In this document: positions 2,440-36,625 of the stretch, piece by piece
How positions within the stretch are numbered: position 1 is the stretch's first letter
How the letters are laid out: every line of letters starts with the position of its first letter
Source: Bacteroidota bacterium
GTDB taxonomy: Bacteria > Bacteroidota > Bacteroidia > Chitinophagales > LD1
DNA length: 64,000 nucleotides
Direction: 5' to 3'
Assembly: GCA_947475165.1 (NCBI GenBank)
Contig: CANJLD010000015.1
Span: 1-64,000, forward strand
Notes under the pieces: model-generated
Told to the model about the DNA's origin: nothing
Database searches by the model: none
Seen by the model: the letters and a program-made list of their open reading frames with translations, nothing else
Position numbers and translations under genes: made by a program

Positions 2440-2704
2440 GTGGGGTTCCCGCCTCAAAGCAGGCGGTCGGGCTTTCCGCTACAATCTTTTTTGCTGGCTG
2501 TATTAATTCCCCTCCTTTTTTCAAGGAGGGGTGCCCGTTTCGGGCGGGGTGGTCTGTCGCGCTAAAAGCAAAAAAGGATTTCCGCTCCAATCCCTAACCC
2601 TAACAGCCAACAGCCGGTTCTCTCTATCACATCATTACTACAAACAGAAAACTCCTAACGGAGTAAAAAACAAAAATGCTCCGTAGGAGCAATCTGTTTG
2701 TGGA
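2440..2704. repeat. REP-like dispersed repeats between uvrA and the next gene
   Basis: This gap holds no gene. At 2452-2482 and 2574-2600 are segments containing TTTCCGCT (gtcgggctttccgct and ggatttccgctcc). Related text occurs near 26740-26830 in the opposite sense. At 2511-2553 there is a palindromic ccctcctt/aaggaggg hairpin. At 2638-2704 an imperfect inverted repeat has arms ctacaaacag...ctcctaacggag and ctccgtaggagc...ctgtttgtgg. The same ctcctaacggag motif is found again at about 26574. These are typical dispersed palindromic repeats. Confidence 0.6.
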
Positions 2705-4789: not shown

Positions 4790-5075
4790 GGTTTCTAATT
4801 CAATCATAAATATAACAGAGCAAAACCACCCTGCGAAAAAAATAAATGCTACCCCTCTTTTTCAGCCTACGAAACTTCGGTAGCTTATGCGTTGGTGCGT
4901 AGCACAGTCAGAAGTTTCGAGATGAAAAAGAGATTAGAAAGGCAACACTAAAAACCTATCAATTAAAACACACCTAAAAATCTAAAGACTGTATTGAGCC
5001 AAGCCTGTCTGTTCGCGCGGAGCGTTCGAACAGACGATTTTTTGGTTCCTTTTTTCTAAAAAAAGGAACAAGAGA
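4790..5075. repeat. Structured repeat element, copy A (three hairpins)
   Basis: A non-coding element with a second copy, in reverse orientation, at 24428-24915. Hairpin 1 has nested stems CTCTTTTTCA/TGAAAAAGAG and CGAAACTTC/GAAGTTTCG at 4855-4932. Hairpin 2 has stem GTCTGTTCG/CGAACAGAC at 5007-5035. Hairpin 3 has stem GTTCCTTTTTT/AAAAAAGGAAC at 5045-5069. Copy B keeps stems 2 and 3 with different, mostly compensating bases. The outer end lies about 30 bp from the start codon of the T9SS gene, and the inner end faces a 21-bp tandem array. It may be a structured RNA, a non-autonomous mobile element or a long 5' region. Confidence 0.75.
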
Positions 5076-5131
5076 AATCTCAAATGCCTCAAAAACCATC
5101 AAAACACCCCAATTTTCCCCAAAAACACCCT

Positions 5132-5448
5132 CTTCCATGCATTCTATAAAAATCTTCATGCACCCAAACGGCATCTTCATGTAGTCAAATCCTCTCTTCA
5201 TGTAGCCAAATGCAATCTTCATGCATCCAAACGCTCTCTTCATGTAACCAAATCCAATCTTCATGTAGCCAAACGTCCGCTTCATGTAGTCAAACGCAAA
5301 CTTCATGCATCCAAACGCTCTCTTCATGTAGTCAAATGCAGTCTTCATTTATCCAAAACCCCTCTTCATGTAGCCAAACGAAAATCTTCATGTATCCAAA
5401 TCACCTCTTCATGCAAAAAAATCAAAACTTCCACGTTGCATTTCCAAT
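5132..5448. repeat. 21-bp tandem array 1 (15 units)
   Basis: Fifteen unit starts with motif CTTCATG, then a degenerate YaNYcaaa core and about six variable bases, at 5132, 5154, 5175, 5196, 5217, 5238, 5259, 5280, 5301, 5322, 5343, 5364, 5386, 5407 and 5428. Spacing is 21 bp except at two 22-bp steps. Both strands carry open frames through part of the array (heptapeptide repeats), but the 22-bp steps break them and there is no supporting start, so I treat the array as non-coding. Units resemble those of array 2 read on its other strand. Confidence 0.85.
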
Positions 5449-5751: not shown

Positions 5752-6996
5752 ATGACAGACGGACAAGAAAACAAGTACAGCATGTACCGGGTTGCAGAAA
5801 AACTTCTCGATGATAACAACATCATCTGGAATGGAACACCCGCTTTCGTTACCACAAAAGGAGCCTTCTCCGCAAAAATCACCGCTATCTTTAACGCTAC
5901 GCAACAACAACAGGCTATCATCACCGGTATCTCCACCGACAAAAAAGTTTTAAAAGTTTCAGTAATAGATACAGCCGCTCCTGTAGCAGCAGCAGTTATC
6001 GCTTACGCTTCACAAACAAACAACAACGAACTTTTAGATGCAGTAAATTTCACACACGCTCAGCTTATCGCCACTCGCGATGATATGTTGGCTGGTCGTT
6101 GCCAAACCATTCACGACAAAGCAAACGCTAATCTCGTTGCACTCGCGGCTTACGGAATTACAGCACCGGTACTCACCACACTTCAAAATGCAATCACTGC
6201 TTACAATACTAAAGTTCCGGCACCCGGCACCGCTAAGCAGAGCAAGAAAACAGCAACCATCAATCTGCGCAACCTCTTTAAAGAAACAGATACAATTCTC
6301 AAGTTGCAGTTAGATAAGTTGATGCTACCCTACAAAACCACCAACTCCGATTTCTACAACAACTACTTGGGCGCGCGCGAAATCATCGACCTCGGTGGCA
6401 CACATACCAAGCTCCGCATGTTCGTCAAAGGCGAAAACAATCTGGGCATACAAAACGTAACCGCTTCCCTCATTCAGAATAACCTCGTCATCTATTCAAT
6501 CGAAACAGATGCCGATGGTAAAGTTGTTCTCAAAAAAATCAAACCGGGCACATACAATTTAAAGGTTCAGAAACCCGGCTTCGAAGCTAAATACGAACAG
6601 GCTCTTAAATTCAAAGCAGGTAAAGAAGTGGTTCGCACCATTGTATTGGTTCCCGGCTCTTCAAACCCTGCAAACGGCATAGCGATAATCGAAGGCGATG
6701 TACCAATGTCTCCTTCAATTGCCAATGCAACGCCAACCAATATCAACGGCACACCGCTCACACACGTAATCATCGAAACCACCACCGAGACCATCCGCAT
6801 CTATGCATCCGCTACCGCGAACGGCTTACCCGGTCCTGTCTTCTTCGATGTATTACCAGGTGCACCGGTAAACAAACTCGGTACAACCTTCGCACAAGAG
6901 CTAGGTTTTAACGATACAAAACCATTCCTCTTAGTTCAAAACCTCGGACCAACACCAACACACTACAAATTCACTTTCGATAATCTGGAAGTGTAG
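5752..6996 (+). CDS. Hypothetical cytoplasmic protein with carboxypeptidase-regulatory-like beta domain
   Basis: The protein has 414 residues and no signal peptide, which is unusual for a Bacteroidota protein with this kind of beta-sandwich. Residues 1-190 look mainly helical (Ala-, Asn- and Gln-rich, including a TQQQQ stretch). Residues about 225-300 match a CarboxypepD_reg/PEGA-like fold, with the run GKVVLKKIKPGTYNLKVQK followed by GFEAKYEQ. The C-terminal ~100 residues look like a second beta domain. It is monocistronic between a promoter-like box and a strong terminator. I cannot name a function. Confidence 0.75.
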   Translation: MTDGQENKYSMYRVAEKLLDDNNIIWNGTPAFVTTKGAFSAKITAIFNATQQQQAIITGISTDKKVLKVSVIDTAAPVAAAVIAYASQTNNNELLDAVNFTHAQLIATRDDMLAGRCQTIHDKANANLVALAAYGITAPVLTTLQNAITAYNTKVPAPGTAKQSKKTATINLRNLFKETDTILKLQLDKLMLPYKTTNSDFYNNYLGAREIIDLGGTHTKLRMFVKGENNLGIQNVTASLIQNNLVIYSIETDADGKVVLKKIKPGTYNLKVQKPGFEAKYEQALKFKAGKEVVRTIVLVPGSSNPANGIAIIEGDVPMSPSIANATPTNINGTPLTHVIIETTTETIRIYASATANGLPGPVFFDVLPGAPVNKLGTTFAQELGFNDTKPFLLVQNLGPTPTHYKFTFDNLEV

Positions 6997-24104: not shown

Positions 24105-24419
24105 GATTTTTGAGCAGCCGAGAGAAACGGAGGAAAAAACGGAACTCATTTGGAGGGTGAGAGGAGCGATCTGGAGGGTGAGAGATGTTATTCTGGCAGT
24201 GTAAAGTGTAATCTTGGCGGTGAAAGGTTGAATCTGATGGCGATGAAGAGCGATTTTGAGGGCGAGAGGAGTGATTTTGAGCCTGCGAAGTGCGATTTTG
24301 GAGGTGTGAAGTGTCGTCTGAAGGGGATCAGGTTTGATTTGGAGGGTGATAAGTGAGGGTTTTGGGAGAAAAGGCGAGGTTTTTTGATGAAAAAGTAGGA
24401 TTTTGTGGTTTAGAGGAAG
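24105..24419. repeat. 21-bp tandem array 2 (15 units)
   Basis: Exactly fifteen 21-bp registers, clearest at 24147-24356. Representative units are gattttgagggcgagaggagt and gattttggaggtgtgaagtgt. The outer units are degraded but stay in phase. Read on the minus strand a unit begins CTTCAC or CTTCAT and has CCAAAAT in the middle, like array 1. A 68-residue plus-strand frame through it gives a heptapeptide repeat (such as SDFEGER), an expected by-product of a 21-bp period. Confidence 0.8.
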
Positions 24420-24427
24420 AGTAAAAA

Positions 24428-24915
24428 TCCATTTTCTTGTTCCTTTTTTTAAAAGGAGGAAAGTCAAAATTTTCTTTGTCACTTTTCTTTACAAGAAAAG
24501 TAACCAAAAGAATCGGCCGCTCAAACGCTCCGCGTGAGCGGACAGGCTTTGCTCGAATACAGCCTTTAGATTTTTAGTTGGGTTTTAAGTGGAAGGTTTT
24601 TGGTGTTGTCTTTTTCTATCTCTTTTTCATCTCGAAACTTCTGACTGTGCTACGCACCAACGCATGGGCTACCGAAGTTTCGTAGGCTGAAAAAGAGGGG
24701 TGGTGTTTAAGTAAAAAGTAAGTTTAGATTTGGGGAACAAAGTTGTTGGTGTTTTAGTATCGGCTCTGCGATACGCCACCAACAACGGCATAGAACTTCT
24801 AGATTCGCTATGCGAGCAAGGCAGGAGGCTACCGAAGTTGAGGAGGCCAAAAAAGAGGGATGGTGTTTAATTTTTAGAGGCGTTGTTTTGCTGTGTTATG
24901 TTTATGCTTGAAAGA
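24428..24915. repeat. Structured repeat element, copy B (inverted, with extra hairpins)
   Basis: Reverse-oriented partner of the element at 4790-5075. Hairpin 3 is at 24478-24504 (gtcacttttctt/aagaaaagtaac), hairpin 2 at 24515-24543 (ggccgctca/tgagcggac) and hairpin 1 at 24620-24697 (ctctttttca/tgaaaaagag). An additional ~140 bp (24720-24860) is absent from copy A. It has perfect stems gttgttggtg/caccaacaac (24742-24786), gtatcg/cgatac, and gcatag/ctatgc, followed by a second gctaccgaagtt...aaaaagagg...tggtgtttaa segment, as if the outer half had been duplicated. The outer end is about 50 bp before the transposase start. No gene is seen in 24010-24967. Confidence 0.75.
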
Positions 24916-24967: not shown

Positions 24968-26524
24968 ATGCCAAACAGGATTCCAGTTAGTAAGCTAAGG
25001 TTATTATTTGCCCTTTACAAACAAAATAAGATCATCAGTAAGAGGAGGATTGCGCAGACACTGAAGATAACTCGCAATACGCTGAAAAATTATCTTACCA
25101 AATTTCAAAACATAAACGGCTCTTATTCTGAAGTAGCAGAAGATGAGAAAACTTTCATCGGTTTACTTTTTCCTCAAAGAGTGAAATCTGAAAGGGAGAA
25201 TCAGATGTATGCTTTCTTTCCTGCGATTCACGCCCGACTTGAAAATACTGATTTAACCCTGCATGATGAGTGGGAAGAATATATCAGAGAAGTTCCACAG
25301 GGATTTAAAACCACGCAATTTTATCACCACTATTCGAAGTGGCTTAAATCCATTGGAATCGCCACAAAGCCAAACAACCGGTGGCGCATAAAATCAATGT
25401 CGGAAGAGGAGGTATTGCAGTTGAAGAAGTTCAGGCAATCCGTCAATAGGCAGAAGTGGGAACGAGCGGTTGCGCTGCTGGATGCGCAAAATGGTGTCCA
25501 GCTCGAAATTATTGCGAAAAAGTTAGACAGATCGCGAGATGCTGTGAAGGATTGGATAAAAGCTTATGCGGTGGGCGGCTTCGATACCCTGTTCAATAAA
25601 AAGAGGATACCCAACGAGGACATAGCCTTGTCACTTAAAGTCAAGAGGGCAAACCTCATCAAACTAATTCACGAGACACCGAAACTGCACGGGATTAACC
25701 GCGCCTCGTGGAGTTTGAAAACCCTGTCGGCAGCCTACCGCGAAGCATTTGGAGAATCTATGTCAATGACCACCGTTTCAGAGTATATCAGGGCAGAAGG
25801 ATATTCCTTCAAAAAGGCACGTGAGACACTGACCAGTCCCGATCCGTTATACAGGGAAAAGTTACAGAAGATAACAACGATCCTCTCCAACCTCGGTGCT
25901 AAAGAGAAGTTCTTCTCGGTGGACGAGTTCGGACCGTTCGCGGTGAAGATGAAAGGTGGGCGGGTGCTGGTGAAAAAAGGAGAAAACAGGACATACCCAC
26001 AATTTCAAAAGAGTAAGGGGTGCCTTATCTGCACGGCTGCGCTTGAACTTTCCACCAACCAGGTCACACACTTCTACTCGACCAAAAAAGATACGGAGGA
26101 GATGATCAGACTGCTTGAAGTGTTGTTGAAGGAATACTCTGGACAGGAACGAATCTTCTTTTCCTGGGATGCAGCATCGTGGCACGCTTCAAAAAAACTT
26201 CATGAGAAAATAAAGCAGGTTAACGAACTGGAATACCGGATAGCCAATAACACACCACTTGTCGAACTTGCGCCTTTGCCCGCTTCGGCACAGTTCCTTA
26301 ACGTGATTGAGTCTGTTTTCAGCGGGATGGCTAAGGGGGTTATCCATAATAGCGATTACCAATCTGTAATTGAATGCAAGGAAGCGATTGATCGGTATTT
26401 TGCCGAACGGAACACCTATTTCAAAGAGCATCCCAAGCGTGCTGGCAATAAAATTTGGGGAAAGGAAAAAGTGAAGTCGGTGTTTAGCGAGATCAATAAT
26501 TGCAAGGACGAAAGGTGGAGATAA
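24968..26524 (+). CDS. Long IS630-like DDE transposase
   Basis: A 518-residue protein with two helix-turn-helix parts: an N-terminal one (about 15-45, ISKRRIAQTLKITRNTLKNY, as in IstA-like proteins) and a Tc1/IS630-like one (about 150-200, LEIIAKKLDRSRDAVKDWI). A DDE domain follows with SVDEFGPFAV (first Asp), FFSWDAASWHAS (second Asp) and AQFLNVIESVFSGM (Glu after a Pro/Ser-rich stretch). It is longer than usual IS630 transposases (~340 residues). I could not find convincing terminal inverted repeats or a TA duplication. It may be an IS or a domesticated gene; the frame is intact. Confidence 0.82.
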   Translation: MPNRIPVSKLRLLFALYKQNKIISKRRIAQTLKITRNTLKNYLTKFQNINGSYSEVAEDEKTFIGLLFPQRVKSERENQMYAFFPAIHARLENTDLTLHDEWEEYIREVPQGFKTTQFYHHYSKWLKSIGIATKPNNRWRIKSMSEEEVLQLKKFRQSVNRQKWERAVALLDAQNGVQLEIIAKKLDRSRDAVKDWIKAYAVGGFDTLFNKKRIPNEDIALSLKVKRANLIKLIHETPKLHGINRASWSLKTLSAAYREAFGESMSMTTVSEYIRAEGYSFKKARETLTSPDPLYREKLQKITTILSNLGAKEKFFSVDEFGPFAVKMKGGRVLVKKGENRTYPQFQKSKGCLICTAALELSTNQVTHFYSTKKDTEEMIRLLEVLLKEYSGQERIFFSWDAASWHASKKLHEKIKQVNELEYRIANNTPLVELAPLPASAQFLNVIESVFSGMAKGVIHNSDYQSVIECKEAIDRYFAERNTYFKEHPKRAGNKIWGKEKVKSVFSEINNCKDERWR

Positions 26525-26559: not shown

Positions 26560-26830
26560 AAAAACAAAAGTCGGCTCCTAACGGAGCGTGATTAATTTTT
26601 GCTTTTTATTTTCTACAAACAGAGTGCTCTGATGGAGCAAATACATTCCACCCTCGTCCCGCTTCGCGTGACACTCCCGCCAGCGGGAGAGAAATACAAA
26701 TACAAAAGACAGAACCGGTGAGCGAAGGCGGCTGTTTGCGCGAGGGATTGAAGCGGAAATCTCCCGCACCGGTTGGCATCTGCGCGGGTGGGTGCGGGAA
26801 TTGCAGCGTAAAGCCCGACCCGAGGCTTTG
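26560..26830. repeat. REP-like repeat block
   Basis: This ~400-bp gap has no gene. It contains gctcctaacggagc (about 26574), ctacaaacagagtgctc (26619), and a GC-rich stretch with gattgaagcggaaatctcccgc (about 26747) and ttgcagcgtaaagcccgaccc (about 26802). The reverse complements of these occur in the gap at 2440-2704. Overlapping frames here are Pro/Arg-rich and not credible. Confidence 0.6.
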
Positions 26831-36301: not shown

Positions 36302-36625
36302 TTCCGCTTAACGGTTGTCCTTTTCCGCTCAATTTTCTGGCGATTACTTTCTTTCGATAAAAATCTCCTACTGCATCCGCGGGCTTTCCGTTATGCCGCA
36401 AGGTCTTTCCTGTGGCGGAAAGGCCTTGCGGGCGTCCGGAATACTTCTTCCCTTGTGCGGAAAGCACCTGCTTGAGAGCGGAAAGACTTAGAAAGCAAGC
36501 GGAATGCCTCTGCGGTTAAGCGGAAAGACATAGAAATTGAGCGGAAAAGCCTTGCGGGAGTGCGGAAAGACCTAAAAGGTGAGCGGAAACTCTCTGCGGA
36601 TGGGCGGAATACCATAAAAGCCCAT
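36302..36625. repeat. 21-bp tandem array 3 (about 15 units, orientation inverts in the middle)
   Basis: TTCCG cores at 36302, 36323, 36386 and 36407 (units at 36344 and 36365 degraded), then CGGAA cores at 36416, 36437, 36458, 36479, 36500, 36521, 36542, 36563, 36584 and 36605. All are 21 bp apart within each part. The inversion point is a palindrome at about 36404-36421 (tctttcctgtggcggaaa). The remaining ~10 bp of each unit vary. The minus-strand frame here has an Arg-Phe/Phe-Arg heptapeptide repeat, a by-product of the period. No structured element flanks this one. Confidence 0.85.

Follow-up and report, generated by a model that had tools for sequence, protein, structure and literature searches.

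Tandem arrays with an exact 21-bp period are paired with gene families for helical proteins, and each family keeps the array on one fixed side of the gene; this pairing is as good as certain. Its most economical explanation would be that the protein reads its array. We put it at slightly better than an even chance that proteins and arrays form cognate sets, in which the repeats would keep to one face of the helix, with array 1 of the DNA analysed here as the DNA half of a two-part locus. This DNA, called the window throughout, is a stretch of 64,000 nucleotides from a Bacteroidota bacterium (contig CANJLD010000015.1) and carries the following features:

5123-5431, plus strand: array 1, a 21-bp array of 14.6 units with 2 indels, consensus CCAAANGCNNTCTTCATGTAN (circular 21-state profile fit)
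5752-6996, plus strand: partner gene of array 1, family A1, 414 aa, with a Pfam carboxypeptidase-regulatory-like Ig domain
4843-5077, minus strand: copy 1 of a structured (hairpin) element, 3' of array 1 on the G-rich strand of the array
24131-24424 (periodic segment), plus strand: array 2, a 21-bp array with unit AGAAGTGTGATTTGGAGGGTG, 10.0 units fitted at 24146-24355
24471-24709, plus strand: copy 2 of the structured element, followed by a DDE_3-type transposase gene (24968-26524)
36384-36620, plus strand: array 3, a 21-bp array of 11.3 units, GAGCGGAAAGNCCTTGCNGGT, absent from the preliminary description of these arrays

The 21-bp period that the preliminary description had noticed at the place of array 1 was confirmed: lag-21 identity over 210 bp reached 0.71 for array 1, 0.55 for array 2 and 0.51 for array 3, with a maximum of 0.41 in the remainder of the window (mean 0.28, sd 0.034). 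When lags 12 to 63 were scanned across the window, lags 21, 42 and 63 at the three arrays ranked top. The description had also counted 15 unit starts CTTCATG at steps of 21 bp, two of them 22. The period stands, but the exact core was found 12 times between 5100 and 5450, at eight steps of 21 followed by steps of 42, 22 and 21, the 42 step corresponding to one mutated unit. Array 2 had been credited with 15 units and with a core related to that of array 1; neither was recovered, since the fit gave 10.0 units and the best similarity between the two unit profiles was 0.40 (p = 0.16 against column-permuted profiles). Array 1 is the "home" array of gene 5752-6996. Arrays 2 and 3 are orphans: array 2 has no recognised partner gene, and array 3 lies upstream of a gene that we take, from its sequence, to be Hsp20-like. 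Synteny usable for an empty-site comparison was sought at the gldN, Hsp20 and array-2 loci and none was found.

Clustering of the array-adjacent genes separated two families: A1, which includes the window gene, stood beside an array in 5 of 11 cases, and the A2/A3 family ("METGHAKN") in 3 of 3. An iterated profile applied to all 61 sampled stretches of the window's own genome found 16 ORFs of the A1 superfamily at 15 loci, the sixteenth being the second gene of a tandem pair. An array was located directly upstream, at 1-425 bp, at 14 of these 15 loci; this is the figure used here, the count restricted to array-holding stretches being 14/14. The exception, L353, has only a sub-threshold candidate array (lag 21, 0.50), 320 bp upstream. 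Counted from the arrays, 15 of 45 in this genome have an A1-superfamily gene (both L348 arrays included) and 30, among them arrays 2 and 3, do not. In the genus, the protein search returned 30 loci; with eight partial or domain-only matches omitted (L307, L312, L317, L318, L319, L323, L325 and L329), the array was upstream at 19 of the 22 loci examined, the exceptions being L309 (second gene of a tandem pair), L330 (no array) and L328 (array downstream).

The window protein has a conserved C-terminal part and an N-terminal part that appears helical from comparison and from a low-confidence model. Searches at E 0.01 of NCBIfam, PADLOC and PHROGs gave no match, and the whole protein is without a named family; its single-sequence structure model was worthless (pLDDT 31), and viral contigs scanned with it yielded no relative. 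The pI of nine A1 members ranged from 4.8 to 9.5 and several are acidic; direct DNA binding by A1 is therefore a poor fit. Neither a nuclease nor a transposase domain was detected by Pfam in those A1 members that were scanned.

A3 is an unannotated helical family of about 240 aa, basic and internally duplicated. The A2 alignment was scanned against 84,980 species genomes, giving 298 relatives, of which the best 80 were kept; these are titled Flavobacterium, Chryseobacterium, Aequorivita, Chitinophaga, Cyclobacteriaceae, Paludibacter and others, with one Ignavibacterium bin. A 21/42-bp array was present 3' of the gene in 74 of these best 80 of 298 loci, at a median gap of 52 bp, and in 73 of the 80 under a stricter setting. 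Three of the six misses have 229, 205 and 5 bp of sequence left; the other three (L244, L279 and L287) have room and show no array within 700 bp, L279 having one about 1.7 kb further on. Under the stricter setting, 3 additional arrays lie over 1 kb away from the gene in the 656 kb that the 74 loci span, and the 600 bp on the 3' side of the gene contain no array with a different best lag. Each of the 12 full-length members in the genus, among them one interrupted by a stop, has the array downstream; a 43-residue fragment has none. The family also occurs on two viral contigs, and the array accompanies it on both.

The A3 arrays share a common unit, TngCAaCcGCAAaaAGAAATa, derived from 63 distinct arrays of the 74, with a mean similarity of 0.571 versus 0.393-0.408 in 8 column-permuted controls. 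The strand count of 59/63 is biased high, since the consensus had been fitted to the strand being counted, and the A1 strand correlation given below is the fairer test. The pI of A3 was over 8 in 47 of 51 members; columns conserved at >=85% include 9 basic and 5 acidic ones, and the two halves of the protein gave a local score of 61.5 versus 30.8 when shuffled. Six members matched no Pfam family at E 0.01, and searches of NCBIfam, PADLOC and PHROGs gave isolated weak hits (E 0.0005-0.005, far below the NCBIfam cut-off) and no name. The structure model is all-helical (pLDDT 92, pTM 0.82). Fold searches with it found no match at E<=0.001, VIA Z values of up to 9.0 being within the noise quoted for helical proteins, and no DNA-binding fold could be recognised in the model; nor did Pfam detect a nuclease or transposase domain in the members scanned.

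In both families the array follows the protein. Array similarity correlated with protein identity among A3 loci (r 0.44, n=51; reached by 0/2000 permutations) and among A1 loci when arrays were read on the gene strand (r 0.48, n=28; 0/3000 permutations), the value on the opposite strand being -0.03. The A1 figure uses 28 of 30 loci, L310 and L320 having been dropped because their arrays overlap the reading frame. A counter-example is provided by the window gene itself: its closest relative, in G004, is 66-67% identical and has a dissimilar array (0.16, gene strand); a G009 relative, 61% identical, has a similar one (0.68). The tracking could in part be due to shared descent of the linked sequences.

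Few arrays of the window's genome resemble one another. Only 6 of 990 pairs among the 45 arrays exceeded a similarity of 0.9; five of these join an A1-gene array to a gene-less array, and the sixth joins two gene-less arrays with a common home. Genome-wide DNA searches with three home arrays identified one other copy of array 1, whose neighbours on contig C39 are hisS and a phosphatase-like gene, and three other copies each for the L352 and L345 homes. None of the 7 satellite loci has an A1 gene within about 1.5 kb. The homology between home and satellite ends within 25 bp beyond the array in three comparisons and within 26-51 bp in two. The pair L347-L008 (0.63) gave no BLAST hit and was excluded as home and satellite.

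If these are cognate sets, each two-part locus would consist of a 21-bp-phased array and the neighbouring helical-protein gene, 5752-6996 in the case of array 1. Each protein type has its own array sequence, with the home array on a fixed side of the gene and, for the three sets whose copies were sought over the whole genome, a small number of satellites elsewhere. The protein, alone or in a complex, would recognise its own unit and assemble along a single face of the helix, because 21 bp is two turns. Home and satellites would thus make up a private set of sites, and many such sets would run in parallel in one genome. The period, the pairing with its fixed side, the strand-specific tracking and the satellites are observations, whereas binding, assembly and any effect on the linked loci are proposed. 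It is possible, although we advance this only tentatively, that these sets act as parallel, independent address systems, each helical protein uniting its home and its distant satellites under common control or in contact, with sets that do not interfere with one another. The absence of A3 counts against the cognate interpretation: this family provides the strongest evidence for the pairing, and no member was found in the window's own genome. The A3 loci that have room but no array, the failure to recognise a DNA-binding fold and the 30 arrays with no A1-superfamily gene weigh against it too; the basic A3 proteins and the dyad-symmetric units are in its favour.

Arrays were also counted in sampled stretches of the genome, a genome-wide count having been proposed in the preliminary description. 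The window's genome has an array roughly every 30 kb; the usual period is 21/42, and units mostly differ between arrays. The first 864 kb sampled, which includes the window and two stretches chosen for a known element match or array (L023 and L212), yielded 33 periodic segments judged non-coding, and 29 of them had a period of 21 or 42. The proportion was 15 of 19 in 20 further stretches, 10 of which had been chosen for an A1 relative from the protein search, arrays being disregarded. The 45 arrays fitted comprise 30 from the first sample (one with a best lag of 43) and 15 from the second. Coding repeats were removed by an approximate long-ORF filter of 150 codons in one scan and 250 in the others, which took out collagen-like 9/18-mers and a coiled-coil gene in L012. 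Coding heptads were rejected as the origin of the arrays: many arrays lie clear of any stop-to-stop frame of 150 codons, although the filter is approximate and array 1 itself lies within a 225-codon frame.

Under the same settings, non-coding arrays of period 21/42 numbered 1 in 20 kb of G004, 3 in 60 kb of G005, 1 in 100 kb of G009 and 2 in 36 kb of G010. None was found in stretches of G007, G018 and G020 (100 kb each), G016 (80 kb), G013 and G015 (60 kb each), G014 (40 kb) or G002, G006 and G011 (20 kb each). A blank stretch does not indicate an array-free genome, because gene-directed searches found arrays in G007 and G015 too. Some of the relatives' stretches were picked on contigs already known from other matches, and the hisS array of G010:C43 was known beforehand.

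The genus set consists of 51 fitted arrays with 612 contiguous, degenerate units, in which 22 indel events stand against 3283 non-consensus bases; 36 of the 51 arrays are free of indels. Pooled lag identity was 0.593 at 21 and 0.29 at both 20 and 22. Conservation was uneven over the 21 columns in 36 of the 51 (p<0.01), in agreement with the conserved core and variable remainder described for array 1, as a result for the pooled set and not for each array. Only 12 of 1275 unit pairs were above the 99.9% null level, versus 2 of 1275 in column-permuted controls, and 2 of the 51 arrays resembled the A3 consensus (>95% null); a single binding motif common to all arrays was rejected on these grounds. 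The suggestion that the arrays bind protein or organise the nucleoid survives in its first half: protein binding is still the likeliest function, and one general nucleoid array is unlikely because units differ among arrays and follow the neighbouring protein.

Phased A-tract curvature was another candidate that was set aside, predicted curvature lying above the 5% tail of column-permuted controls in 6 of 47 arrays and below it in 4. Against plain shuffles 18 of 47 were above and 4 below, an excess for which periodicity by itself can account. The arrays showed no sub-period of 10-11 bp. CRISPR was discarded as well: the units are contiguous and degenerate, there are no unrelated spacers, and no cas domain was found in the neighbours scanned, which are part of all neighbours. 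For a Rho or C-rich RNA function, the orientation of the G-rich strand relative to co-directional flanking genes was uninformative (8 opposite, 5 same).

The preliminary description had placed the structured element at the centre, in a repeated order of array, element and gene. In element orientation, the two copies, 86% identical, do flank their arrays on the same side. The gene paired with array 1, however, sits on the opposite side of the array, at 5752-6996. The association of arrays with the element is real in relatives: a 21-bp array was found within about 3 kb at 12 of 17 element loci and, the array-bearing locus of the window's own genome apart, at none of 29 gldN control loci. The array was 5' of the element in all 18 stretches or window loci that hold both, judged by the longest element match, and four element stretches had no array (L104, L105, L116 and L120). 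Once oriented by the element, with orientations set by hand, 19 of 21 arrays had more G than C. The association is nevertheless a genus-level one and leaves arrays elsewhere unexplained. Matches to the element were found in 9 of 30 genomes searched, the window's own included, and this genome has two full copies, both inside the window, against 45 sampled arrays. The element was therefore rejected as the defining partner, a place taken by the helical-protein genes, which arrays adjoin at 74 of 80 loci phylum-wide (A3) and, in the window's genome, at 14 of 15 with the array upstream (A1).

Several minor features of the element were noted. In hairpins with a GCTCCGC loop (both window copies, L102 and L110) the stems, compared by eye, stay complementary though the stem sequence varies. 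A second hairpin, GTTGTTGGTG...CACCAACAAC, was seen in both orientations and was excluded from the orientation of array and element. In two species the element is followed by a gene for a 518-aa DDE_3 transposase (window 24968-26524 and L102:17315-18871); the two genes are very similar, and the arrays upstream are dissimilar. Two Rfam Flavo-1 RNAs, at 2461-2612 (minus strand) and 26733-26824 (plus strand) of the window, each lie about 2 kb past an element copy on the gene side.

The alternative that survives best, although we consider it unlikely, is a selfish set resembling REPIN/RAYT, in which the protein aids the copying of its array, satellites are non-autonomous copies and the array plays no part in the cell. 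REPIN/RAYT is architecturally the closest known system, even though its defining transposase was not found here. As described in the parts of the source consulted (PMC3116915), REPIN/RAYT of Pseudomonas and others has a single-copy gene, an adjacent cluster of its own repeat type and dispersed copies, with several distinct sets per genome, and gene and repeat are proposed to co-evolve; the RAYT protein is a tyrosine transposase, and a REPIN consists of two REP sequences in inverted orientation. In each of the three sets searched genome-wide, a home with the gene and 1-3 copies without it resemble this arrangement, as does homology largely confined to the array. Links to the hairpin element in the genus and to transposase genes at two loci are also in its favour. 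So is the variation among genomes of the gap upstream of hisS: it holds dissimilar 21-bp arrays in G010 (L151/L187, core TGACGTCA) and G000 (L133), whereas in G001 it has a weak 22/44-bp repeat and in G009 no array. However, Pfam found no Y1/HUH transposase and no recognised catalytic domain in the A1 and A3 members scanned. The repeats are tandem, fixed 21-bp arrays with few satellites, unlike pairs of inverted palindromes, and 10 of 51 units are dyad-symmetric. Copies per set are few, the A3 gene and array keep to one side phylum-wide, and one A3 protein searched against plasmid and phage records found no match there.

Rather less probable is that the array is a cis-regulatory operator array for the neighbouring gene only, its satellites forming a small regulon. 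Dyad symmetry is common in sites bound by symmetric dimers; it was detected in the units of 10 of 51 arrays (p<0.01), others being strand-skewed, and the upstream position of A1 arrays would suit an operator. A3 arrays, on the other hand, are downstream of their gene, and at 14 of 68 loci they lie beyond an intrinsic terminator.

The same terminators bear on a third possibility, which we regard as improbable, that the array acts as RNA, serving as a leader or 3' UTR scaffold to which the encoded protein binds. This would agree with the strand of the array being fixed relative to the gene and with the positive GC skew on the element strand (19/21). It would also agree with the mostly short gaps at A3 loci, 54 of 68 of which showed no terminator between gene and array in our own terminator scan (the gap is over 50 bp at 35 of the 68). 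Where a terminator does intervene (14/68), the array is therefore outside the mRNA. Terminators were also found within 200 bp after the array (13/68), so that this argument is a modest one; terminators inside the array were counted at 13/68 as well. Gene-less satellites, and self-complementarity confined to a subset of arrays, likewise argue against an RNA.

Neutral minisatellites arising by slippage, with a mutational bias to 21 bp, are very improbable: a period of 42 (two-unit blocks) is often stronger than 21 (19/29 arrays), as block duplication predicts, and arrays at one locus differ between species, but such repeats would not be expected to be paired with two gene families on fixed sides, share a unit consensus phylum-wide in A3, conserve their columns unevenly (36/51) or show 22 indel events against 3283 non-consensus bases.

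A minisatellite comparable in form is BrickBuilt, a MITE of Porphyromonas gingivalis. The parts of that source consulted (PMC4596501) describe an intergenic repeat with a 23 nt unit, about two helical turns, with conserved and non-conserved positions; there are 19 elements of one imperfect repeat type with leader and tail, and no partner gene is described in those parts. The arrays reported here are likewise intergenic minisatellites of about two turns in Bacteroidota, with constant and variable positions, but unlike BrickBuilt, as far as those parts describe it, they have many unit sequences (12/1275 pairs above the 99.9% null), a constant 21 bp and a partner gene. Their flanks are of two kinds: some arrays share an element on one side, and others share almost nothing outside the array. 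TAACTGA heptamer repeats are also intergenic direct repeats, and 7 bp is a third of 21; the sections of the source consulted (PMC4679880) report them in some Bacteroidota too, mostly near start codons, as one fixed heptamer and with no partner gene described there, which sets them apart from the 21-bp arrays.

The protein/array pairs favoured here also have a counterpart in replicons. Iteron arrays with their replication initiator, and parC with ParR, consist of tandem sites, each about two turns long, next to the gene whose product recognises them, with a replicon-specific unit. The arrays described here are similar in being tandem units of about two turns beside a gene, whose product would read them. 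They differ in being chromosomal, many per genome and accompanied by satellites, and no initiator or ParR family was found among the proteins scanned.

No description of the arrays or of their pairing with genes was found among open-licence PMC papers, a scope that makes this weak evidence of absence; a protein with a matching DNA address system looks undescribed. The pairing ties unannotated proteins, one family of which ranges from Flavobacterium through Chitinophaga-like bins and includes a single Ignavibacterium bin, to intergenic DNA usually dismissed as minisatellite, and gives each a testable partner. If the proteins do read their arrays, bacteria would hold parallel, orthogonal protein/array pairs in a fixed helical register, which would be relevant to chromosome organisation and could supply new DNA-recognition proteins. 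Should the proteins not read them, an explanation would still be required for why pairing and side are fixed and the period stays at 21 bp throughout the phylum.

Further partner families may exist. Arrays L012:11630-11828 and L086:13720-13968 adjoin homologous proteins with a carboxypeptidase-regulatory-like domain, and L005:10409-11056 and L207:12348-13070 may be additional cases. In different species, L013:5540-5985 (two opposed arrays) and L192:17392-17615 (AT-rich) were located directly upstream of homologous genes for 126-128 aa HTH/coiled-coil-like proteins, possibly a third gene-array family. Another non-coding array, at L253:10056-10368, has a period of 32 with a lag identity of 0.91; it lies near an A3 locus in a Chitinophaga bin.
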